Assembly (NCBI GenBank): GCA_002068815.1
Contig: MWAC01000096.1
Coordinates: 1 to 10,917, forward strand
Source: Firmicutes bacterium ADurb.Bin467
GTDB lineage: Bacteria; Bacillota; Clostridia; Christensenellales; Aristaeellaceae
DNA length: 10,917 bases
Direction: 5' to 3'
Shown piece by piece: positions 1,346 through 10,875 of the stretch (its first letter is position 1; the number at the start of each line of letters is the position of its first letter). A program made the position numbers and the translations under genes. Below the pieces are notes generated by a model. It saw only the letters and a list, made by a program, of their open reading frames with translations, was not told the DNA's origin and searched no databases.

Positions 1346-2377
1346 CTATCGGAGAGGCGCGGTCGTCCCGCCGTCCCAGAATTCGACGTCGGCGACGGAG
1401 CGCATCGGGTCGAGGGGGACCGGATCGGCGCCGATCTTGCGGAACAGGCGCTCGGCCGCGGCGAGGGCGGCCTCGGGCTGGTCCTCGCGACAGGTGATCG
1501 AGCTCATCGAAAACGGCAGGTTCGCGCGCCTGCAGATGCCGTCGAAGCCGACGATCGAGTAGTCCTCCGGCACGCGCTTGCCGCGGCGCCTGAGGTTCGT
1601 CCAGAGGTTGAAGCCCATCAGGTCGCTGAACGCGAACACGGCGGTGCAGGAGAGGCTTCCCGAGACCATCTCGTCGGCGACCTGCTCGCTGCCGTTGCCG
1701 ATCATCCGTATGCTGCGGATCAATTCCTCCCGGGCGGGCACGCCGAACTCCCGAAGCGCCTTCAGATACCCCTCGAGCCGGCCGAAGCGGTTCGAGACGG
1801 TCGACGAGGTGTTCAGCATCAAAATGTCGCGGTGGCCGAGCGTAAGCAGGTGCTTCGTCGCGAGGTAGCCGCCCTTTTCGTCGTCCCACATCGCGTAGTC
1901 GGCCTCGTCGTGGCAGCGGCCGATCAGGACGAACGGCGTGCCGAAGCGCCGAAGGAGCTCGATCGGCTCGTGCGAGTGCTGCGCGGGCGAGAGCAGGATG
2001 CCCGCGACGCGCTGGCTGTACGCGCGCTCGATCGCCTGGAGCTCGATTTCCTCGTCGTCGCGCGTGCAGATGATGTAGAGGAAGTAGCCGTGCTTCGCGA
2101 AGTACTCCTCGACGATCTTGATGTTCATCGCGTGGTAGGCGTTCGATACGTCGTCGACGAGCATCGCGACGGTCTTCGTGTGCCCGAGCCGAAGCGACGC
2201 GGCGACGGTGTTGTTGATGTAGCCGAGCGAGCGCGCGGTCTTGCGGATGTAGGCCTTCGTCTCGCTCGAGATGTCGCTCTTGTTGCGAAGCGCGCGGGAG
2301 ACGGTGTTGATGCTGTAGCCGGTGACCTCGGAGATGTCCCGCATCGTGACGACGCGCTTGCTGTCCGTAGGTTTCAT
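1346..2377 (-). CDS. LacI-family transcriptional regulator
   Basis: A 343-residue DNA-binding regulator of normal LacI-family length. The N-terminal helix-turn-helix is at about residues 11-31 (VTMRDISEVTGYSINTVSRA), followed by the hinge helix near 55-63 (NNTVAASLR). The sugar-binding core keeps family landmarks: VDDVSNAYHAMN (74-85), ILLSPAQ (127-133), PFVLIGR (148-154), GGYLATKHLLTLGHRDI (169-185), RLEGYLKAL (200-208) and VPEDYSIVGFDG (269-280). The start at 2377 is chosen because it leaves the usual short tail before the HTH and has AAGGA upstream, though at long spacing; an ATG at 2401 would add eight residues. It sits 31 nt behind thiN and probably shares its promoter. As the only regulator here, beside a sugar importer and amino-sugar-like enzymes, it likely represses those operons until ligand binds (inference). 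Confidence 0.93.
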   Translation of the reverse strand: MKPTDSKRVVTMRDISEVTGYSINTVSRALRNKSDISSETKAYIRKTARSLGYINNTVAASLRLGHTKTVAMLVDDVSNAYHAMNIKIVEEYFAKHGYFLYIICTRDDEEIELQAIERAYSQRVAGILLSPAQHSHEPIELLRRFGTPFVLIGRCHDEADYAMWDDEKGGYLATKHLLTLGHRDILMLNTSSTVSNRFGRLEGYLKALREFGVPAREELIRSIRMIGNGSEQVADEMVSGSLSCTAVFAFSDLMGFNLWTNLRRRGKRVPEDYSIVGFDGICRRANLPFSMSSITCREDQPEAALAAAERLFRKIGADPVPLDPMRSVADVEFWDGGTTAPLR

Positions 2378-2408: not shown

Positions 2409-3044
2409 TCACAATTCGACCGCCGTGTGCGGCAGCGCGACGAGCAGCGTGCCGGACGCGACCGACGCGCGCGCGGGGCGGCCGACGAACGCGTTGCTGA
2501 CGCCGAGCGGATAGTCGCCGCGAAGCGTCGCGCCTTCCAGCGGATATCGAAGCCCCTCGAGCGCCACGCCTCGCGCCTCGCCGAGCGGCGCGAACACCGA
2601 GAGGACGCCCGTCGAGGCCGCGCCGAAGCGGAGCTCGCCGTCGGTAATCGCGGTGAATTGGCAGCTCTCGTCGACGAGACGGCCGCGCGCGCCCCTGAGC
2701 GACAGATAGCACAAGAGCTGCAGGTTCGCGACCGTGTGGTCGAGCCGGCCGCCGGTGCCGCCGTAGAGCCGGAAATCGCGGAAGCCGCGCTCCAGGCCCA
2801 ACCGGATCGCGGCGAGCATGTCGGTCTCGTCCTTTTCGACCGGCAGGCGCACGACCTCCGCGCCCTCGGGCGGGGAGGCGAGCGAGTCGAAGTCGCCGAC
2901 GACGGCGTCCGGGGAAACGCCGATTTGCGCGAGGCTCGCAAGCCCGCCGTCCGCCGCGACGACCCAGTCGCCGGGCGCGGGCGCGAAGCCCCGGGCGCAG
3001 AAGTCGCCCGCGCCCACGATCCAGCAGCGTGCCGGGGTGTTCAT
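2409..3044 (-). CDS. thiN: thiamine pyrophosphokinase
   Basis: A 211-residue cytoplasmic enzyme that transfers pyrophosphate from ATP to thiamine, giving thiamine diphosphate. The bacterial TPK motifs are in order: ADGG (31-34), GDFDS (50-54), KDETDML (71-77), GGTGGRLDHTVANLQLL (95-111) and a C-terminal SNAF...SGTLLVAL (183-204); the last motif more usually reads SNEF, so one acidic residue is replaced by Ala. Length fits the family. The ATG at 3044 is well fixed by AGGAGGG (3051-3057 on the - strand) with 6-nt spacing. A strong promoter lies about 40 nt upstream and the predicted leader is only about 30 nt, too short for a TPP riboswitch. It is first in a two-gene unit with the LacI-type regulator, a pairing with no obvious metabolic logic. 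Confidence 0.93.
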   Translation of the reverse strand: MNTPARCWIVGAGDFCARGFAPAPGDWVVAADGGLASLAQIGVSPDAVVGDFDSLASPPEGAEVVRLPVEKDETDMLAAIRLGLERGFRDFRLYGGTGGRLDHTVANLQLLCYLSLRGARGRLVDESCQFTAITDGELRFGAASTGVLSVFAPLGEARGVALEGLRYPLEGATLRGDYPLGVSNAFVGRPARASVASGTLLVALPHTAVEL

Positions 3045-3349: not shown

Positions 3350-3385
3350 TCCGAAGGGGCTGATCAGGCAGGCCGGGGAGTTGCC

Positions 3386-3430
3386 TGCCGGCGGGCGGGG
3401 GTGCGGTACCGCACGTCGGTGATCGAATGA
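3386..3430 (+). repeat. 45-bp direct repeat, copy 1
   Basis: It matches copy 2 (3456-3500) at 42 of 45 positions by direct reading, with a 70-bp period. It contains a perfect 14-bp palindrome, GTGCGGTACCGCAC (3401-3414), and ends GATCGAATGA. Its left edge also pairs with upstream sequence: GGCAGGC (3367-3373) with GCCTGCC (3383-3389). Confidence 0.85.
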
Positions 3431-3437
3431 AGGATCA

Positions 3438-3454
3438 GAAAACCGGAGGTTTTC
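3438..3454 (+). repeat. short hairpin between the direct repeats
   Basis: GAAAACC (3438-3444), loop GGA, GGTTTTC (3448-3454): a perfect 7-bp stem with a 3-nt loop. No U-run follows, so it is not a clear terminator. Confidence 0.55.
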
Positions 3455-3455
3455 G

Positions 3456-3500
3456 TGCCGGCGGGCGGAGGTACGGTACCGCACGCCGGTGATCGAATGA
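3456..3500 (+). repeat. 45-bp direct repeat, copy 2
   Basis: The second copy, ending just before the ribosome binding site GAGGTGA of the next gene. The palindrome in it carries one mismatch (GTACGGTACCGCAC, 3471-3484), but here CCGGCG (3458-3463) can also pair with CGCCGG (3484-3489), making a nested hairpin close to the start codon. Confidence 0.85.
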
Positions 3501-3510
3501 GGTGAATGAA

Positions 3511-4839
3511 ATGCTGAAGGCGGGATTTGCACGGCTGCCGATTGCGCCGCCGCTTGGGATAACGATTACGGGATATTACGAGCCGCGCGTGGCGAAGGGG
3601 ACGCTCGATCCGCTCTTTGTGAGCGCGACGGCGTTTTCGGACGGGGAGAGCCGGTGCGTCCTCTTGTGCCTCGACGCGGTCGGCATACGGCAGGCGACGC
3701 TCGACGGGGTGCGCGAGCGGATCGGGAAGAACGTCGGGCTTCCGCGCGCGGCGGTGTTCGTGACGTGCACGCACACGCACACCGGGCCGGAGATCGACGA
3801 CGGCCTGTTCGAGCCGGACCCCGGCTACAACCAGCGGCTCGAAAAGCTGATGGAGCAGGCGGCGCAGGCGGCGCTCGACGATTTGAAGGACGCGCGGATA
3901 CTCGCCGCCGACGGGCGTGTCGAGGGGATCAGCTTCATACGGCGCTTCCGGATGCGCGACGGCTCGACCCGGACGAACCCCGGCTACGGGAACCCGGACA
4001 TCGTCGCGCCGGTCGGGGAGCCGGACTACCAGTTAAAGATCGCGCGGATCGTGCGCGAGGGCGCGGACGAGATACTGTTCGTGAACTTCCAGGTGCACCC
4101 GGACACGATCGGCGACTGCATGGGGAGCGTCGAGCTGTTTTCGGCCGACTATCCGGGCTTTGTCGTGCGCACGCTCGAGGGGGCGCTCCCGGGCGTGAAG
4201 GCCGTGTACCTGAACGGCGCGGCCGGAAACCTGAACCACGTGAACGTGTTCAAGCCCGACTGGGACCCGAACGGCGGCTACGAGCACACCGCGCACATGG
4301 GGCGGGCGATCGCCGGCGAGGTGCTCGGCATCTACACGAAGGCGCGGACGGTCGAGTCCGAGCGGGGCGTGCGCTTCGCGGAAACGCAGCTTCCGGCGCC
4401 GGCGAACAAGGCGCGGCCGGAGCAACTGCCGCTGGCGAAGGACTACGTCGAGTGGCACAGGACAGGGCGCGGCGATTTGATCCCGGAGACGGGCATGGGC
4501 ATCACGACCTTGGTCGCCGAGGCGACGCGTATGCTCGCGCTCGCCGACGCGCCGGACAATTTCCTGTTGAATATGACCGCGCTGTCGGCCGGCGGGCTGT
4601 GCCTCGCGGGGATCCCCGGGGAGGCGTTCACCGAGGTCGGGCAGCGCGTGAAGGCCAATTCGCCGTTCCCGCAGCAGATGGTGCTGGGCATCTCGAACGG
4701 CTACGAGGGGTATTTCCCGATGCGGGAGGCGTACGAGGAGGGCGGCTACGAGGCGCGCAGCTCGAGCTTCAAGCTGGGCATCGCCGAGAGCATCGCCGAG
4801 GCGGAGGCGGAGCTGGTTCGAACGCTTTGGGAGGGATAG
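3511..4839 (+). CDS. cytoplasmic neutral/alkaline ceramidase-fold hydrolase, substrate unknown
   Basis: A 442-residue protein resembling the N-terminal catalytic domain of neutral/alkaline non-lysosomal ceramidase (Pfam Ceramidase_alk). It has no signal peptide and lacks the C-terminal domain of secreted ceramidases. Family motifs seen: CTHTHTGPE (H88, H90), RR near 144-145, NFQVHPD (H196), GIPGEAFTEVG (E371) and SNGYEGYFPMREAYEEGGYE (Y398/Y401, 395-414). By memory of the Pseudomonas enzyme these cover the zinc ligands His, His, Glu, Tyr. The segment holding the catalytic Ser in ceramidases (GDVSPN) reads GNLNHV here (239-244), with Asn at the Ser position. The start at 3511 is preferred over GTG 3502 because GAGGTG lies 6 nt upstream. 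It is first in an operon, 1 nt before a NagA-like gene, so an amidase or deacylase acting on an imported sugar derivative is plausible but unproven. Confidence 0.85.
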   Translation: MLKAGFARLPIAPPLGITITGYYEPRVAKGTLDPLFVSATAFSDGESRCVLLCLDAVGIRQATLDGVRERIGKNVGLPRAAVFVTCTHTHTGPEIDDGLFEPDPGYNQRLEKLMEQAAQAALDDLKDARILAADGRVEGISFIRRFRMRDGSTRTNPGYGNPDIVAPVGEPDYQLKIARIVREGADEILFVNFQVHPDTIGDCMGSVELFSADYPGFVVRTLEGALPGVKAVYLNGAAGNLNHVNVFKPDWDPNGGYEHTAHMGRAIAGEVLGIYTKARTVESERGVRFAETQLPAPANKARPEQLPLAKDYVEWHRTGRGDLIPETGMGITTLVAEATRMLALADAPDNFLLNMTALSAGGLCLAGIPGEAFTEVGQRVKANSPFPQQMVLGISNGYEGYFPMREAYEEGGYEARSSSFKLGIAESIAEAEAELVRTLWEG

Positions 4840-4840
4840 C

Positions 4841-5971
4841 ATGCTTGCGGTTGTCAACGCGGTGCTCGTGATGCGGGACCACCTGATCCCGGACGGGGTG
4901 CTGCTCTCGGACGGCGGGAAGATCGTCGGCGTCGGCGCGCGCAGGGACGTCGATGTGCCCGCGGGCTGCGAGGTCGTCGACGCGAGGGGGAAGTTCGTCG
5001 GGCCGGGGCTCATCGACATGCACACGCACGCGGCGGGCGGCAAGTACTTCTTCGAGGACCCCGCGTACTGCGCGAGGACCGTGCTCGAGCATGGGGTCAC
5101 GGGCGTGCTTCCGGCTCTGTACTTCAACATGACGAAGCCCGAGTACCTCGGCGCGATGGAAAAAATCCGGGAGGCGGCCTGCCCGAACATACTCGGGCTG
5201 TACATGGAGGGCCCGTACCTGAACCCGAAGTTCGGCTGCGACCGCGAGAACAACCCGTGGAGGGGGCCGATCCGCCGCGAGGACTACATGGAGATCGTCG
5301 AAGCGGCGAGGGACATGGCGCGCGCGTGGGCGGTCGCCCCGGAGCGCGAGGGGATCGCGGAGTTCTGCGAGGACGTCGCGGCGGCGATCCCGGGCATCGC
5401 GTTCACGGTCGCGCACAGCGAGGCGTCGCCGGAGCAGATCGAGCGGCTGATTCCGCTGGGATTGAAGATCGGCACGCACCACACGAACGCGACCGGCGAC
5501 CTGCCGAAGTACCCGGAGTGCCGGGGCGTCTGCGTCGACGAGGTGGTCAACTTCCGCGACGACATCTTCGCGGAGCTGATCGTCGACAGAATGGGCATAC
5601 ACGTCGCGCCCTACATGCTTAGGCTCGTCAAGAAGATCAAGGGCGAGAGGCGGATCGTGCTGATCTCGGACGCGTGCGTGTTCGACGGGCCGGTGCCGCC
5701 GGGATACGACGGCGCGGACGACATCAACTTCGACTTCGAGGGCGAGATCGCCGGCTCGAAGCTGACGCTGGACGTCGCGTGCCGGAACATGATGGTGCAC
5801 ACCGGCTGCTCGATCGTCGACGCGTTCCGATACGCGTCCCGGAACCCCGCCGAGGCGCTGGGGCTCCGGGCGAAGGGCGAGCTCCGCATAGGCTTCGACG
5901 CCGACTGCGCAATTGTCGACAACTGGATGAACGTCGAAGGCGTCATCTTGAAAGGGGAGATAGTATCATGA
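4841..5971 (+). CDS. NagA-like amidohydrolase (N-acetylglucosamine-6-phosphate deacetylase family)
   Basis: A 376-residue amidohydrolase with a TIM-barrel metal-dependent deacetylase pattern. GPGLIDMHTHAAGG (54-67, with H61 and H63) is followed by YMEGPYL (metal ligand E123), VAHSEA (H192), GTHHTNA (H213), GIHV (H254) and ISDA (catalytic D277). Length matches NagA, which removes acetate from GlcNAc-6-phosphate in the cytoplasm. The loop after EGPYL differs: the usual GAHN/GTHN, with a substrate-contacting His, is replaced by FGCDRENNPWRG (131-142). R228 and H254 could still serve a phosphate. GGAGGG lies 5 nt before the ATG, inside the end of the upstream gene. The last bases overlap the next gene as ATGA. 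Deacetylation is likely; GlcNAc-6-phosphate as substrate is only a guess. Confidence 0.85.
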   Translation: MLAVVNAVLVMRDHLIPDGVLLSDGGKIVGVGARRDVDVPAGCEVVDARGKFVGPGLIDMHTHAAGGKYFFEDPAYCARTVLEHGVTGVLPALYFNMTKPEYLGAMEKIREAACPNILGLYMEGPYLNPKFGCDRENNPWRGPIRREDYMEIVEAARDMARAWAVAPEREGIAEFCEDVAAAIPGIAFTVAHSEASPEQIERLIPLGLKIGTHHTNATGDLPKYPECRGVCVDEVVNFRDDIFAELIVDRMGIHVAPYMLRLVKKIKGERRIVLISDACVFDGPVPPGYDGADDINFDFEGEIAGSKLTLDVACRNMMVHTGCSIVDAFRYASRNPAEALGLRAKGELRIGFDADCAIVDNWMNVEGVILKGEIVS

Positions 5972-6930
5972 ACCCGTTTTTCTTCGATCCACCGACCGAC
6001 TTCGCATTCCGGTGCGGAGACTACGTGCCGTTCAAGGACCGTGAACTCTGCGAAAAGCTGCGCAAGATCAGCGGAAAGGATTTGGAGAAGCACCCGAACC
6101 CGGACTTCAACATCAAGGTGATGATGAACCCGCACCCGGTGCTGATCGCGACCTTGTTCGAGCGCATCCGGAGGTCCGACGAGCTCGACAAGCGGTGCAC
6201 GCTGATCCTCGGAAACCCCGAGCCGGAGACGTACATACCGGTCGCGCAGCTGATCAACTACCACCGCGTCAACTGCCGCAACGTCCACCTGTTCGCGATG
6301 GACGAGTGGGCCGACGACCAGGACAACATCGCGCCGGAGACCTACAAGGCGGGGTTCGCGCACTCGATGCTGAAGTATTTCTGGGCGCAGATCGACGAGG
6401 AACTCCGGATGCCGCTCAAAAACGTCCACTATCCGACGAATCAGAACATCTCGTATTATTCGAAGCTGATCGCGGACACCGGCGACGGCGGCGCGGACTT
6501 CTGCAGCTCGTCGCCCGGCTGGACCGGCCATATGGCGTTCATCGACCCGGTGGACGACTTCATGCAGGTCTCGAGCATGGAGGAGTATCTGCAGCAGGAG
6601 GCGCGCATCATCACGCTGCACCCGCTGACGGTCGCGCAGAACTCGCTGCACGGCGTGTTCGGGCAGTCGGGCTACATCGCGGACGTGCCGCCGAAGGCCG
6701 CGACGATCGGGCCGGTCGACGTGCTTCGGTCGCGCGAGCGGATGGAGGTGCACGCGCTGCTTACGAACAACACGTTCTCCTCGTGGCAGCGGATGACCTC
6801 GCGGCTCGTGCTGCACGGCCCGGTGTGCCCGCAGGTGCCCAGCTCGATGCTGCAGCTGATGAAGACGCAGGTGCTCGTCTCCGACGAGATCGCCGCGCCG
6901 TTCGAGAGCTGGGAGAAGGTCGGATACTGA
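5968..6930 (+). CDS. NagB-like isomerase/deaminase-fold protein, non-canonical active site
   Basis: A 320-residue protein of the glucosamine-6-phosphate isomerase / 6-phosphogluconolactonase fold. The core is recognisable: TLILGNPEPETYIPVA (78-93), VHLFAMDEW (106-114, D112 aligning with E. coli D72), and PGWTGHMAFIDP (183-194, H188 aligning with H143). Several defining residues are changed. The phosphate loop TGGT/TGST becomes NPEP (83-86). D141 becomes T186, and E148 becomes D193. Segments aligned with R172 and K208, which hold the sugar phosphate in E. coli NagB, read NSLH (225-228) and NNTFSS (267-272). It is about 50 residues longer than NagB, mainly at the N-terminus. AAAGGGGAG lies 8 nt before the ATG, which overlaps the NagA-like stop. 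It may isomerise or deaminate a sugar that lacks the usual phosphate; true NagB activity looks unlikely. Confidence 0.82.
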   Translation: MNPFFFDPPTDFAFRCGDYVPFKDRELCEKLRKISGKDLEKHPNPDFNIKVMMNPHPVLIATLFERIRRSDELDKRCTLILGNPEPETYIPVAQLINYHRVNCRNVHLFAMDEWADDQDNIAPETYKAGFAHSMLKYFWAQIDEELRMPLKNVHYPTNQNISYYSKLIADTGDGGADFCSSSPGWTGHMAFIDPVDDFMQVSSMEEYLQQEARIITLHPLTVAQNSLHGVFGQSGYIADVPPKAATIGPVDVLRSRERMEVHALLTNNTFSSWQRMTSRLVLHGPVCPQVPSSMLQLMKTQVLVSDEIAAPFESWEKVGY

Positions 6931-7128
6931 GAGGTTCCGGGGGGCCGGCGGTCGCGGGGTTTTCAGCCGGGAAAGGTCGGGCGCTGTGTGCCGGGGGCAG
7001 TCCGGAGGCGTCCGGCGGGGTCGCGGCGGCGTTCGCGAACCGGAAGGCCGGGCGGGAATGGAGATCGACGGGCGGCGACCCGAAGAATGCTGTAGGTCGG
7101 CAAACCGGGCAAAGGGCCCGGCGGGGCT

Positions 7129-7166
7129 GCGGCGGCCGGTTGCGGATTGGGAAATCCGGCCGCCGC
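7129..7166. repeat. 11-bp perfect inverted repeat
   Basis: GCGGCGGCCGG (7129-7139) pairs with CCGGCCGCCGC (7156-7166) across a 16-nt loop. This is a very stable all-GC stem without a direct U-run. It may end or protect the upstream mRNA. Confidence 0.7.
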
Positions 7167-7227
7167 GCTCCGTCGAATTTGGACGGGAGTGTTAAGTTTT
7201 TACGGATTAATAACAATTGCCGGCCGG

Positions 7228-7237
7228 ATCAATTGAT
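7228..7237. promoter_or_regulatory. palindrome overlapping the -35, possible operator
   Basis: ATCAATTGAT is a perfect 10-bp palindrome that overlaps the -35 hexamer at 7233-7238. A second CAATTG lies 16 bp upstream (7214-7219). It could be a regulator site, but short AT palindromes also arise by chance. Confidence 0.3.
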
Positions 7238-7261
7238 TCGGAGTTTCGCAGATGTTATAAT
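7233..7261 (+). promoter_or_regulatory. strong promoter of the ABC importer operon
   Basis: TTGATT (-35, 7233-7238), exactly 17 nt, TATAAT (-10, 7256-7261) preceded by TGT, so a full extended -10 element. Transcription would start near 7268, giving a leader of about 33 nt with GGGAGGT as ribosome binding site before the ATG at 7301. Confidence 0.85.
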
Positions 7262-7271
7262 AACGGTTACA
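7258..7271. promoter_or_regulatory. candidate LacI/CcpA-type operator (cre-like)
   Basis: The reverse strand reads TGTAACCGTTATTA. This matches the catabolite-responsive-element pattern TGWAANCGNTNWCA at all fixed positions but one. It has the central CG typical of LacI-family sites and covers the end of the -10 and the start point. Either CcpA or the LacI-type regulator at 1346-2377 could bind. The half-site CGGWTACA also occurs at 3333-3340 near the other operon's promoter, but CGGATACA is found inside coding sequence near 152 and 324 too. Confidence 0.5.
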
Positions 7272-7300
7272 GAGTCCAAATAGCGGGAGGTATTTTCAAG

Positions 7301-8320
7301 ATGAGTCAAGTCGGCGCCAGGGCTGCGAAAGAGAACCCCGTTCTCAAGGCACTCTCGAAATTCAGCAAGGACTTCATGTCCGTATTGGGCATCATTTTTC
7401 TGGGCGCCATACTGTCGCTCACTACGGAGAAGTTCCTGCAGTGGGACAACCTAAAGCTCATACTGCTTCAGTCCTCGACGGTGGCCATCTGCGCGCTCGG
7501 CCAGGCGATCATCCTCTTGACCGGCAACTTTGACCTCTCGCTCGGGCGAAACGTCGCGTTCACGAGCTGCCTCGGCGCGCTTTTGATGAAGGGCATGCTC
7601 TACGACGGCATGGCGCCGATGAACCCGACGCTGGTGATCCTGATCATCCTCGCGGCGGGCACGTTCATCGGCGTATGCAACGGCCTTCTGACCGCGTACG
7701 TAGGCCTCCCGGCGTTCATCGCGACCTTGGGCTTGCAGAACGTCTGCTACGGCCTCGCGAAGGTCATCACGAACGCGACGCCGATCGCGACGTTCCCGAA
7801 CTCGATCGCGTGGCTCGGCCGCGGGTTCGCATTTCCGGAGATTCTGAAAAAGAACCTGCCCTGGTGCGTCGTGCTGATGCTGGGCATCTACATCTTCGCG
7901 CAGTTCATCTTCACAAAGACGAAGCTCGGCCGCAACATCTACGCGGTCGGCGGCAACAAGGAAGCGGCGTTCTTCGCCGGCATCAACGTCAAGCGGTACA
8001 CGTTCCTCGCGTTTGTGATGGCGGGCTTCCTGGCGGCGTTCTCGGGCGTCGTGCTGATGAGCCGGCTGAACTCGGTCGCGATCACGAACGGACAGAGCTA
8101 CGAGTTCGACGCGGTCATCGGCTCGATCATCGGCGGCATCAGCCTGACCGGCGGCAAGGGGCGCTTGATCGGCACGATGTTCGGCATCATCTTCGTGATG
8201 CTGCTGTTCAACGGAATGACGCAGTGGAAGGTCGATGCGTTCATGCAGGACGTTCTCAAGGGCATCGTGCTCGTCATCGCCGTGACGCTGGACGTGCTGC
8301 GCAACCGGAAGCGCGTGTAG
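7301..8320 (+). CDS. ribose-type (CUT2) sugar ABC transporter permease
   Basis: A 339-residue integral membrane protein of the RbsC/BPD_transp_2 family. A short cytoplasmic N-terminus is followed by hydrophobic segments at about 27-41, 53-74, 84-97, 109-130, 135-152, 187-204, 234-254, 268-282 and 290-305, with a last one near 319-333. Family landmarks: TGNFDLSLG (74-82; usually TGGIDLSVG), YAVGGNKEAAFFAGINVKRY (214-233), SRLNSV (254-259) and GGISLTGGKG (278-287). It forms the membrane channel, probably as a dimer, for an unphosphorylated sugar-like ligand. The start at 7301 has GGGAGGT 9 nt upstream; further upstream the same frame runs back through the promoter and is not credible. First gene of the importer operon, 33 nt before the ATPase. 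Confidence 0.95.
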   Translation: MSQVGARAAKENPVLKALSKFSKDFMSVLGIIFLGAILSLTTEKFLQWDNLKLILLQSSTVAICALGQAIILLTGNFDLSLGRNVAFTSCLGALLMKGMLYDGMAPMNPTLVILIILAAGTFIGVCNGLLTAYVGLPAFIATLGLQNVCYGLAKVITNATPIATFPNSIAWLGRGFAFPEILKKNLPWCVVLMLGIYIFAQFIFTKTKLGRNIYAVGGNKEAAFFAGINVKRYTFLAFVMAGFLAAFSGVVLMSRLNSVAITNGQSYEFDAVIGSIIGGISLTGGKGRLIGTMFGIIFVMLLFNGMTQWKVDAFMQDVLKGIVLVIAVTLDVLRNRKRV

Positions 8321-8353
8321 CCATCCGCCCCAACTTTTGGGAAAGGACAGGGA

Positions 8354-9844
8354 ATGATGGAGAACGAATACATTCTGAGATTGCAGGGCATAACGAAGAG
8401 CTTCCCCGGCGTCAAGGCGCTGGACGGCGTGAGCTTTGACGTGAAGCGCGGGACGATCCACGCGCTGGTCGGCGAAAACGGCGCGGGAAAGTCGACGCTG
8501 ATCAAGATACTCGCGGGCATCTACCACGCGGACGAGGGAGCTCTCCACTTCAACGGCAGGGACAACGTCGCCTTCCGCACGCCGCACGAGTCGCACCAGG
8601 CGGGCATCGGCGTCGTCCACCAGGAGATCAAGCTGGCCGATCCGCTGACCGTCGCCGAGAACATGTTCGTCGGGAACCTCGTCTACACAAAGCTCGGGCT
8701 CGTCGACTGGAAGACGATGAAGAAGCGCGCGAGGCAGATCATCCGCGACCTCGGCATCGACATCGACGTCAACGCGCCGGTGAGCGCCCTCTCGGTCGCC
8801 AAGCAGCAGATCGTCGAAATCTGCAAGGCGGTCAACCTCGAGATGAAGCTTTTGATCATGGACGAGCCGTCGGCGACCCTGACCGAGCGCGAGCTCGAGA
8901 TCATGTTCGGCATCGTCCGCAAGCTGCGCGACGAGGGCATCACGATCATCTACATCTCGCACAGGCTCGACGAGATCTTCGAGCTCGCGGACATGGTGAC
9001 GGTGCTGCGCGACGGGAAGCACATAGGCACCGTGCCGGTCTCGTCGGTCACGCGCGACCGGTTGATCGCGATGATGGTCGGCCGCGAGCTCGGGCAGCAG
9101 TACCCCAAGGAGGAGATCGCAATCGGCGAGACCGTGCTCGAGGCGAAGGGCATCGTGCGCAGGGGCGTCCTCAAGGACATCAGCTTCTCGGTCAAGAAGG
9201 GCGAGATCTTCGGGATTTCCGGGCTCGTCGACTCGGGGCGGACGGAGCTCGCGCGCGCGATCTTGGGGATCGACCGGCTCGATTCGGGCGAGGTGTTCGT
9301 CCGGGGCAAGAAGGTCAACTACCGCGGCTTTCGCGACGCGATCCACGACGGGCTGGGGCTGATCCCCGAGGACCGGAAGAAGCAGGGGCTCGTGCAGATA
9401 TTCGACATCAAGACGAACATCTGCATGGTGAACCTCAAAAAAGTCATCCGCGCCGGGATCGTTCGGAAGCGGCTCGTCAACCGCTACGGCACGGAGTACG
9501 CGAAGAAGCTGCGCGTCGTGATGCCCTCGCTCGAGACGCAGGTGCAGTTCCTCTCCGGCGGCAACCAGCAGAAGGTCGTCGTCGCGAAGTGGCTGATGCA
9601 GGACAGCGAGATATTGATCCTCGACGAGCCGACCCGCGGCATCGACGTCGGCGCGAAGGCCGAAATCTATCGGCTGATGACGGAGATGGTCAAGGAGGGC
9701 AAGACCGTCATCGTGATCTCGTCCGAGATGCCGGAGCTCCTGGGCATGTGCGACCGCATCATGGTCATGCACGAGGGGCAGAAGAAGGGCGAGCTGACCC
9801 GCGAGGAGGCGAACCAGGAGCGCATCATGGCGCTGTGCGTGTAG
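8354..9844 (+). CDS. sugar ABC transporter ATP-binding protein, two ABC domains (RbsA-like)
   Basis: A 496-residue cytoplasmic ATPase of normal RbsA/MglA length with two fused ABC domains. Domain 1: Walker A GENGAGKST (40-48), signature LSVAKQQ (146-152), Walker B LLIMDEP (166-172), H-loop H203. Domain 2: degenerate Walker A GLVDSGRTE (290-298, the lysine replaced by Arg), signature LSGGNQQ (400-406), Walker B LILDEP (421-426). A degenerate second nucleotide site and a divergent first signature are usual for this subfamily, so they are not defects. AAAGGA lies 6 nt before ATG 8354; a second in-frame ATG follows at 8357 and could be the true start. It drives the permease encoded just upstream. 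Confidence 0.95.
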   Translation: MMENEYILRLQGITKSFPGVKALDGVSFDVKRGTIHALVGENGAGKSTLIKILAGIYHADEGALHFNGRDNVAFRTPHESHQAGIGVVHQEIKLADPLTVAENMFVGNLVYTKLGLVDWKTMKKRARQIIRDLGIDIDVNAPVSALSVAKQQIVEICKAVNLEMKLLIMDEPSATLTERELEIMFGIVRKLRDEGITIIYISHRLDEIFELADMVTVLRDGKHIGTVPVSSVTRDRLIAMMVGRELGQQYPKEEIAIGETVLEAKGIVRRGVLKDISFSVKKGEIFGISGLVDSGRTELARAILGIDRLDSGEVFVRGKKVNYRGFRDAIHDGLGLIPEDRKKQGLVQIFDIKTNICMVNLKKVIRAGIVRKRLVNRYGTEYAKKLRVVMPSLETQVQFLSGGNQQKVVVAKWLMQDSEILILDEPTRGIDVGAKAEIYRLMTEMVKEGKTVIVISSEMPELLGMCDRIMVMHEGQKKGELTREEANQERIMALCV

Positions 9845-9855
9845 CGCAACAACGA

Positions 9856-9879
9856 TTCAAACGGGGACGCCCCGTTGAA
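9856..9879 (+). repeat. intercistronic hairpin ahead of the binding-protein gene
   Basis: TTCAA-A-CGGGG (9856-9866), loop ACG, CCCCG-TTGAA (9870-9879): ten pairs with one bulged A. It lies between the ATPase stop and AAGGAGG (9889-9895) of the next gene. No U-run follows, so full termination is unlikely. It could stabilise the 5' end of a processed mRNA for the binding protein, normally the most abundant part of such systems (inference). Confidence 0.6.
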
Positions 9880-9903
9880 TAAAACATCAAGGAGGAAGAT
9901 ACA

Positions 9904-10875
9904 ATGAAGAAACTTGCGGCTCTGGTACTGGTTATGCTTCTCGCCCTTTCGGTGATTTCGGTCGCCGGCGCGGAGGAGCTCCCGCTCGCCGGCAAGAAGA
10001 TCGGCAACACGATCGTCTACAAGGGCGACGTGTGGTGCTTCTTGCTCGCGGAGGAGTTTGAAAAGCAGGCGAAGGCGCTCGGCGCGGAGATCGTCGTCGA
10101 TGACGGCGAGCTGAACGCCGAGGTTCAGACCCGTCAGATCGAGACCTACATCGCCAATAAGGTTGACGTCATCTTCGCCGACCCGGCGACCACCGACGGC
10201 TGCACCGAAGCCTTCATCAAGGCCAACGAGGCGGGCATCCCCGTGTTCACCTATGACTCCGCGCCCGCGTTCGAGGGCGTCATCACCCACACCGGCTGGG
10301 ATCAGTACGAGACGGGCGTCATCACTGCCAACTACGTCATCGACTGGGTCAACGAGAATATGGGCGGCAAGGCCAAGGTCATCCTGATCGGCAACTACTC
10401 TTCCGAGCACTGCATGACCCGCGAGGTCGCGTTCGAAGACACGATCAAGGGCACCGGCATCGAGGTCGTCTACAAGGCCGACTGCGCGGGCAACCGCGAG
10501 ACCGGCGCGAACGCCATCATGAACTACACAGATGACTTCGACATCGTCGTCTCCGTCGTCGACAACGGCGCGTGGGGCGCCGTGTCCGCCATCGAGGCGC
10601 GCGGCCTGGACAAGTACGTGTTCTGCATGGGCGCCTACGGCGACGAGCCGTTCTGCGCGCTGTACAACGATCACCCGATCTACAAGGCCGGCCTGATCGT
10701 CGACCCGGCCGAGATCGCCCGCATCACGCTCGAGAGCTACATCGCCTTCCTCAAGGACGGCAAGCCCGCCGGCGAGACGATCTTTGACCGCACGGTCAAT
10801 ATCCCGCTGTACATGGGCGACCACGAGAACATCACCCAGTACTACCCCTTCCCGAACGGCTACGACGCCGCGTAA
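9904..10875 (+). CDS. sugar ABC transporter substrate-binding protein (periplasmic-binding type 1), non-lipoprotein signal
   Basis: A 323-residue secreted binding protein of the RbsB-like family (Peripla_BP_4). The signal peptide has a KK N-region, a hydrophobic core (residues 4-20) and a probable signal-peptidase-I site AGA|EE after residue 23. There is no lipobox Cys. The mature part shows the type-1 fold pattern: IGNTIVYKGDVWCFLLAEEF (33-52), VQTRQIETYIANKVDVIFADP (74-94), GIPVFTYDS (111-119) and VVDNGAWGAVSAIEARGL (218-235). Cys are at 45, 100, 170, 194, 241 and 251, many for an exported protein. AAGGAGG with 8-nt spacing makes this the strongest ribosome binding site in the window. It is last in its operon, where related systems often place it either first or last. 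It captures the ligand and delivers it to the permease; the ligand cannot be named from sequence. Confidence 0.94.
   Translation: MKKLAALVLVMLLALSVISVAGAEELPLAGKKIGNTIVYKGDVWCFLLAEEFEKQAKALGAEIVVDDGELNAEVQTRQIETYIANKVDVIFADPATTDGCTEAFIKANEAGIPVFTYDSAPAFEGVITHTGWDQYETGVITANYVIDWVNENMGGKAKVILIGNYSSEHCMTREVAFEDTIKGTGIEVVYKADCAGNRETGANAIMNYTDDFDIVVSVVDNGAWGAVSAIEARGLDKYVFCMGAYGDEPFCALYNDHPIYKAGLIVDPAEIARITLESYIAFLKDGKPAGETIFDRTVNIPLYMGDHENITQYYPFPNGYDAA

Follow-up and report, generated by a model that had tools for sequence, protein, structure and literature searches.

The contig MWAC01000096.1 of Firmicutes bacterium ADurb.Bin467, a bacterium related to animal-gut species, carries a three-gene operon that probably encodes an uncharacterised variant of amino-sugar catabolism in which the kinase acts last. 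The operon encodes a protein with the fold of neutral ceramidases (CER), a NagA-like amidohydrolase and a NagB-like protein. We refer to the entire contig (C96; 10,917 bases) as the window; the genome comprises 1.67 Mb in 320 contigs and is 74% complete. An earlier note on this DNA had described the three genes as coupled in this order beside a ribose-type (CUT2) importer and a LacI-type regulator, and this arrangement was confirmed: a single nucleotide separates CER from the NagA-like gene, and the NagA-like stop and NagB-like start overlap as ATGA. The observation of that note as a whole held in part. That the genes belong to a conserved catabolic set of amino-sugar type is well supported. 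We further propose an as yet uncharacterised pathway that takes in an N-acylated amino sugar, or a conjugate of such a sugar, and phosphorylates last, with the operon as its entry half, and give this model as a whole an even chance of being right. The residues lost, the importer type and the family of the associated kinase would together be read best as early steps on unphosphorylated sugar.

The NagB-like protein had no Pfam match and did not reach the cut-off of TIGR00502 (33.4 bits against 236.9). Profile comparison nevertheless relates it to Escherichia coli NagB (hhalign probability 97%, E 9e-11), and its AlphaFold model (predicted local distance difference test, pLDDT, 87) matches solved glucosamine-6-phosphate deaminases, so the NagB fold is present. 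Residues were tabulated for the window plus 64 of 77 NagB-like, 50 of 54 NagA-like and 27 of 34 CER cluster members, with members outside length limits omitted, paralogues included and the E. coli residue identities checked. We take Thr41-Gly-Gly-Thr44, Arg172 and Lys208 to be the sugar-phosphate ligands of NagB, and Asp72 and Asp141 to be active-site residues. The phosphate loop is replaced in the NagB-like proteins by Asn-Pro and is two residues shorter, as it also is in 32/32 rows of a second alignment; over the 65 rows of the table, neither Arg172 (Leu in 63) nor Lys208 (Gln in 64) occurs even once. The equivalents of Asp72 and Glu73 are present in 65/65 and that of His143 in 64/65, the Glu148 position is Asp in 63/65, and Asp141 is found in 0/65. 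His143 and Glu148 belong to the NagB active site according to the accessible text of one source (PMC4008608). The sugar-phosphate ligands are lost family-wide and the Asp/His pair is retained. Newly conserved residues are Trp273 (64/65), Gln274 (64/65) and Arg275 (62/65), and Arg279 is invariant in the 32 rows of a separate alignment. Relatives of the protein numbered 2598 at E <= 0.001 among 3396 candidates scored, and few among the 120 listed bear a name given by their source. On a Vibrio nigripulchritudo plasmid (L125, region 3893-9750) the gene for a NagB-superfamily protein (32.6% identical over 72% of the query) lies beside genes for a nucleoside hydrolase, adenosine deaminase, ribokinase and nucleoside transporter, a context which hints at ribose-type compounds as substrates of some NagB-like relatives.

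The NagA-like protein likewise stays below its equivalog cut-off (TIGR00221, 138.2 bits against 225.65). For this family we used the binuclear metal ligands and phosphate contacts of NagA as they are named in the accessible part of PMC6016474. The metal ligands (HxH, Glu, His, His, Asp) are each present in 51/51 rows, as is the equivalent of His251. The position of E. coli Arg227 varies (Lys 19, His 10, Thr 8, Arg 4), and that of Asn219 is Asn in 40/51 and Asp in 11/51. According to the same part of that source, mycobacterial NagA does not turn over unphosphorylated N-acetylglucosamine (GlcNAc) and accepts GlcNAc-6-sulfate with a 7-fold higher Km. In six loci (L064, L065, L066, L068, L070, L071) the NagB-like protein is 74-75% identical to that of the window and the NagA-like protein merely 28-30%, as if the deacylase were exchangeable.

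CER scores 28.2 bits against PF04734, below the gathering cut-off of 32.1. A single-sequence search of the PDB gave no match with CER, and a PF04734 search of the window's own genome gave none there or in the controls. The structural model (pLDDT 93) has neutral ceramidases as its top Foldseek matches (4wgk_A, E 1.8e-27; 2zws, E 4.6e-27), and nothing beyond this group matched convincingly. The zinc ligands of neutral ceramidase are presumably His97, His204, Glu411 and Tyr448, and we take Ser250 of the 2zws chain to be the nucleophile. Aligned to 2zws, the four ligands correspond to H88, H196, E371 and Y401 of CER, which are kept in 28, 26, 28 and 28 of 28 rows. The serine corresponds to Asn242, and in the group that contains the window's CER this position is Asn in 11 and Gly in 7 of 18 members and Ser in none; over all 28 rows Ser occurs in 6. 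CER thus resembles the neutral/alkaline ceramidases (PF04734; Pseudomonas aeruginosa 2zws, human 4wgk) in its fold and four zinc ligands, and differs from them in its shorter chain (442 amino acids against 646-688), in the replacement of Ser by Asn or Gly in its group, in its sub-threshold Pfam score and in its sugar-operon context. The earlier note had held that canonical residues were lacking. This applies to the NagB phosphate ligands and the CER serine; the NagA metal ligands and the NagB Asp/His pair are in place, and the residue table rules out the stronger statement that all three enzymes lack catalytic residues.

The profile search for loci with all three genes that the earlier note had called for does return such loci. 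A NagB-like scan of a species-genome collection gave 65 loci, 66 with the window, and since these were chosen by six NagB-like peptide patterns, counts over them are neither independent nor unbiased. A gene was scored as present when all-frame profile searches matched it at any point of the fetched locus (up to 10 kb of flank, short contigs included); three repeats (L021, L022 and L029, of L033, L040 and L094) were removed before clustering. Locus labels are mostly Clostridia, Clostridiales, Lachnospiraceae and Oscillospiraceae, with a few Actinomycetota and Spirochaetaceae and one Lentisphaerae. NagA-like genes occur in 52 loci, CER in 30 and all three genes in 28. Gene order varies: CER-NagA-NagB in the window, L033 and L042; NagA-NagB-CER in L038, L056 and L083; CER-NagB-NagA in L055 and L084; NagB-NagA-CER in L085, L090 and L091; and NagA-CER-NagB in L095. 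In genome G046, CER (split over two frames), NagA and the kinase described below share a contig and NagB lies on a different one. The closest named locus, from Candidatus Pullichristensenella avicola (L033), has a NagB-like protein 88% identical to the window's and the same CER-NagA-NagB-importer order; its LacI-type gene has the other orientation. An importer of the window's CUT2 type lies near NagA-NagB in L041, L046 and L076 (permease 60-62%, ATPase 65-68% identical), and two clusters (L023, L041) contain PIG-L deacetylase genes. Within 1007-7752 of L041, NagA-NagB is preceded by genes for the PIG-L deacetylase, the CUT2 importer, a member of an oxidoreductase cluster and a PfkB kinase. The window's own genome has a second NagB-like gene (L032, 12435-13400, on G000:C25; 41% identical) after another CUT2-type importer, with genes that look peptidase-like by eye nearby. 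No paper describing the NagA-like, NagB-like and CER families together turned up in the open-licence literature to which our search was limited.

The earlier note had counted no kinase among the genes of the window, but the wider system does have one. A kinase of the FGGY family, of ketose/polyol type, is encoded in 29 of the 66 loci, and other neighbours recur across the 66: a TIM-family protein of the archaeal triosephosphate-isomerase type (25), a UPF0047/YjbQ-type protein (21), a KpsF/GutQ-type SIS isomerase (20) and transaldolase/FSA (9). Restricted to the 30 loci that have 6 kb or more on each side, the counts are NagA-like 25, CER 18, FGGY kinase 16, TIM 16, UPF0047 13, SIS 12 and transaldolase/FSA 6. 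At least one of TIM, UPF0047 and SIS stands beside the kinase in 23/29 kinase loci, and NagA, CER, the kinase and at least one of these three occur together in 14/66. Ribulose-phosphate epimerase genes (4) and DeoR-type regulators (12) appear among 75 clustered loci. The kinase of L059 scores 177.2 bits against PF00370 and 98.7 bits against PF02782, and the best NCBIfam match of the module kinase is XylB, below cut-off. In G003, a 100% complete genome of the same genus, the triad lies on contig C3 and SIS, TIM, UPF0047 and kinase on C45; the triad and kinase/UPF0047/SIS are on separate contigs in G015 too. In the window's own genome, a distant version of kinase, TIM, UPF0047 and SIS fills contig C69 (4,045 bases). 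The earlier note had also proposed to check whether a ROK or PfkB kinase is always nearby, and neither is: by phmmer at 1e-6 with local query sequences, PfkB matched in one locus of the 66 (L041), and ROK matches, in 8/66, were all frames of 427-487 amino acids whose N-terminal part reads by eye as a DNA-binding segment. Both families were accordingly rejected as the conserved partner kinase; the BadF and GHMP families were not searched. The earlier note had set two observations against its own idea, a conserved kinase in related clusters together with activity on GlcNAc-6-phosphate, and the kinase alone was found.

Association also extends to whole genomes. Among 297 genomes of the order (300 requested; E <= 1e-60), NagB-like genes occur in 7, UPF0047 in 10 and SIS in 11, each overlapping with NagB-like in 6. 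UPF0047 is thus present in 6/7 NagB-like genomes versus 4/290 others (Fisher p 1.6e-9) and SIS in 6/7 versus 5/290 (p 3.5e-9), both values being uncorrected for relatedness; at genus level UPF0047 gives 4/5 versus 2/120 (p 7.6e-6). Over 60 relatives, a kinase scoring above 500 bits, a threshold set after the scores were seen, occurs in 5/7 genomes with a NagB-like protein of at least 60% identity and in 1/53 others. The kinase of the G088 module adjoins an AraA-like aldose-ketose isomerase, and G109 is alike, judged by near-identical sequence; G127 has a gene for an SftI-like isomerase (103.3 bits against a cut-off of 700) placed between those for the NagA-like protein and the kinase. Such isomerases would yield a free ketose, and so would deamination of a free amino sugar by a NagB-type enzyme; a free ketose would then be the natural point at which these routes join. 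In the accessible text of PMC3245297 the substrates given for FGGY kinases are ketoses, polyols, gluconate and autoinducer 2, with no amino sugar among them. In G109 (C1), positions 7597-10499 of L116 hold three NagB-like paralogues in a row, then an FGGY kinase and a further frame resembling an amidohydrolase by eye. In G088 and G109 the TIM gene, next to SIS, has a UPF0047 gene on either side (L114, 8309-10739; L115, 8579-11263), suggesting two specialised UPF0047 proteins per operon. The E. coli member of this family, YjbQ, is described as of unknown function in the accessible part of PMC7954711; UPF0047 was not found among the matches listed from the literature on UPF0047 and FGGY, and the YjbQ literature was likewise unhelpful.

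A related set occurs in Alphaproteobacteria. Of 14 plasmid records matched by CER, 5 were listed. Two Nitratireductor records and Martelella mediterranea DSM 17316 combine LacI, NagB-superfamily, SIS, NagA-like and CER genes with a CUT1 importer. Their NagB, represented by L122, scores best as glucosamine-6-phosphate deaminase (TIGR00502, 106.4 bits, below cut-off), and their NagA-like protein reaches 190.7 bits against TIGR00221, also below cut-off. This NagB is very different from the window's and too distant to be detected with it: the 5 records to which the window's NagB-like protein led do not include these operons. The Martelella operon (plasmid pMM170) adds a gene of the GlcNAc_2-epimerase family (PF07221, 28.3 bits, cut-off 23.4). 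No kinase is listed inside these operons, although the PLSDB gene tables are incomplete and one could be unlisted; in Nitratireductor sp. OM-1 a divergent cluster next to the operon includes a ROK gene.

Which genes are present, the families they belong to, the residues their proteins have lost and their association along contigs and across genomes are shown here; from these we infer a substrate, the individual chemical steps and their order. The free substrate would be imported unphosphorylated through the CUT2 importer. CER may then strip off a first acyl or other group, which is the least certain step, and the NagA-like protein, judging from its fold and intact metal site, would take off the N-acyl group. 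With its Asp/His pair retained in a pocket that has no phosphate ligands, the NagB-like protein would isomerise and deaminate the free amino sugar, giving a free ketose and ammonia. The FGGY kinase, whose gene many relatives have next to the triad and others elsewhere in the genome, would by its family phosphorylate this ketose, and the KpsF/GutQ-type SIS protein, the TIM-family isomerase and UPF0047, sometimes with transaldolase/FSA and ribulose-phosphate epimerase, could feed the ketose phosphate to central metabolism. The PIG-L genes and the Martelella epimerase gene fit an N-acyl amino sugar, and the proximity of the FGGY kinase in 29/66 loci, the family-wide loss of phosphate ligands and the varied gene orders favour the model. 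We hold it more tentatively, with doubt outweighing confidence, in its boldest form, in which de-N-acylation and NagB-fold deamination both occur on free sugars, a Ser-less CER is the opening hydrolase and FGGY, SIS, TIM and UPF0047 act downstream. We know of no NagB-superfamily deaminase for an unphosphorylated amino sugar, and this one would be the first.

Several known systems share parts of this scheme. With GlcNAc catabolism by NagA and NagB it shares folds, gene adjacency, the NagA metal site and the NagB Asp72/Glu73/His143 equivalents; it departs from that system in the loss of the phosphate ligands and Asp141, in having both proteins below equivalog cut-offs, in a CUT2 importer rather than a phosphotransferase system, in an FGGY module rather than NagE/NagK, and in the extra CER gene. 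The AraA/AraB, XylA/XylB and FucI/FucK pathways likewise combine free-sugar import, a free ketose and an FGGY kinase, and an AraA-like isomerase stands beside the module in G088; here, however, the ketose would come from a NagB-fold deaminase, and TIM, UPF0047 and SIS are extra. The erythritol (Ery) pathway uses an FGGY kinase with TPI-like and Rpi-type isomerases. The likeness to its combination of FGGY kinase, TPI-like protein and aldose/ketose-phosphate isomerase is one of resemblance only, since here SIS replaces RpiB, UPF0047 is present, and no polyol dehydrogenase is found among the annotated recurrent clusters. In the N-acetylgalactosamine (GalNAc; Aga) pathway with AgaA and AgaS, deacetylation is followed by deamination/isomerisation to a ketose, and the deaminase/isomerase AgaS, which we take to be of the SIS family, parallels the SIS protein of our set. 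There, however, phosphorylation comes first (PMC12118421, accessible part), and the SIS protein here is of KpsF/GutQ type. In the described GlcNAc and GalNAc routes, as far as the accessible parts of the sources go, phosphorylation precedes the removal of acetate and ammonia (PMC3107205, PMC12118421). The earlier note had suggested an undescribed route whose early intermediates are unphosphorylated; this suggestion accounts for the data better than canonical NagA/NagB does and is supported in part.

A number of observations weigh against phosphorylation-last catabolism or loosen the set on which it is built. With the loss of Asp141, which belongs to the classical active site, deaminase activity of the NagB-like protein is not assured. 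FGGY genes are common (58/60 genomes, each of these with 1 to 21 matches and a median of 6), so that their presence alone means little and it is the proximity in 29/66 loci that counts. The module on C69 is a distant subtype, with a kinase of 419-442 bits against above 500 and a UPF0047 protein of 218-255 bits against about 400-430. Two genomes with NagB-like proteins, G055 (95% complete) and G001 (70% complete, outside the 297), gave no SIS or UPF0047 match at 1e-60, and four (G040, G066, G088, G216) have SIS and UPF0047 with no NagB-like match at 1e-60; G002 (78% complete) has kinase, SIS, TIM and UPF0047 without NagB-like. The occurrence of SIS and UPF0047 in genomes without NagB-like makes the module broader than amino-sugar entry and not specific to it. 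In 15/66 loci a NagA-like gene stands without CER, kinase or TIM/UPF0047/SIS, and 8/66 have neither NagA-like nor any of these, some contigs being short in both cases. The importer of L033 is only distantly similar to the window's (permease 40% identical), and on a Caulobacter plasmid (L124) a CER-like gene occurs with neither NagA nor NagB next to it, which shows that CER is not tied to the set.

Basic residues of the two proteins bear on two alternatives. The NagA-like protein is basic at the Arg227 position in 33/51 rows and could therefore still bind an anionic group, and the conserved R275 and R279 of the NagB-like protein might bind phosphate, sulfate or carboxylate. Together with the invariant His251 equivalent, these residues would suit the canonical order in disguise, in which a kinase encoded elsewhere acts first and the two proteins use a phosphorylated amino sugar through a rebuilt phosphate site; in a genome 74% complete, and not searched as a whole for amino-sugar kinases, such a kinase could be missed. 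The family-wide loss of the NagB phosphate ligands and the shortened loop speak against it, as does the identity of the conserved kinase, which is FGGY, PfkB lying near in 1/66 loci and the ROK matches being of regulator length alone. Moreover, the position of the phosphate-contact Asn of MSNagA (PMC6016474, accessible part) is the one occupied by Asp in 11/51 NagA-like rows, among them those of L066, L068 and L071, loci in which the NagB-like protein shares 75% identity with that of the window. We consider this order decidedly unlikely. The same arginines could instead bind an amino sugar with another anionic group, such as 6-sulfated GlcNAc or an amino-sugar acid, the FGGY kinase then phosphorylating a modified ketose. 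The gene in G127 that resembles SftI (sulfoquinovose isomerase), the transaldolase/FSA genes and the acceptance of GlcNAc-6-sulfate by mycobacterial NagA (PMC6016474, accessible part) would fit, but the SftI match is remote and no sulfatase or sulfonate gene was seen among annotated neighbour representatives, without a systematic sulfatase search; we regard such a substrate as improbable.

It is also conceivable, if unlikely, that no amino sugar is involved, the NagB fold serving as an isomerase or lactonase on a polyol-type compound, the NagA-like protein as some other amidohydrolase and CER as an esterase or lactonase. Against this stand the alphaproteobacterial operons, in which NagA-like and CER genes recur alongside a NagB-superfamily gene whose product is matched best, though below cut-off, by the glucosamine-6-phosphate deaminase model, and the epimerase-family and PIG-L genes in one operon and two clusters, respectively. 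Chance adjacency without a shared pathway could draw on the commonness of FGGY kinases; we reject it in view of the repeated co-localisation in differing orders, the co-occurrence over 297 genomes and the alphaproteobacterial recurrence.

The features of the window are collected in the table. Each copy of the repeat upstream of CER contains the core TRCGGTACCGCA, which lies within a perfect 14-bp palindrome in copy 1 and is near-palindromic in copy 2; the motif matches twice, against a mean of 0.01 in shuffles. The two copies are a candidate operator pair. The roughly 400 bases that precede CER in L033 showed no palindrome of this kind, and an Rfam scan of the window gave no match at gathering scores. 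The top NCBIfam matches of the importer permease were GguB, MglC and ribose permease, every one below cut-off. At the 5' end of the window, a single frame open at that end (1-1128, + strand) combines, as read by eye, ferredoxin-like Cys clusters with a rubrerythrin-like protein that carries rubredoxin-like Cys motifs at both of its ends. A 773-amino-acid frame antisense to the importer genes (7451-9772, - strand) is taken as a product of high GC content and not as a gene.

Table. Annotated features of the 10,917-base window (aa, amino acids; nt, nucleotides).
Feature	Positions	Strand	Basis or remark
LacI-family regulator	1349..2377	-	family search
Thiamine diphosphokinase gene	2412-3044	-	
58-nt direct repeat, two copies, 86% identical, 70 nt apart	3373..3500		directly upstream of CER
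CER, neutral-ceramidase-fold zinc-hydrolase-like, 442 aa	3511..4839	+	PF04734, AlphaFold model, Foldseek; alternative GTG start 3502
NagA-like amidohydrolase, 376 aa, binuclear-type metal site intact	4841..5971	+	TIGR00221 138.2 bits
NagB-like protein, 320 aa	5968..6930	+	hhalign, AlphaFold model, residue table
Complete CUT2 importer	7301-10875	+	3' of the NagB-like gene
CUT2 (ribose-type) importer permease	7301..8320	+	PF02653
CUT2 importer ATPase, two ABC domains	8354..9844	+	family search
CUT2 substrate-binding protein (Peripla_BP_4)	9904..10875	+	family search

If the proposed pathway is correct, its order of steps, opposite to that of the described routes, would alter the interpretation of genes annotated as nagA and nagB in gut and rumen genomes. 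It would also provide testable roles for a Ser-less subfamily of the ceramidase fold and a metabolic role for the orphan family UPF0047.

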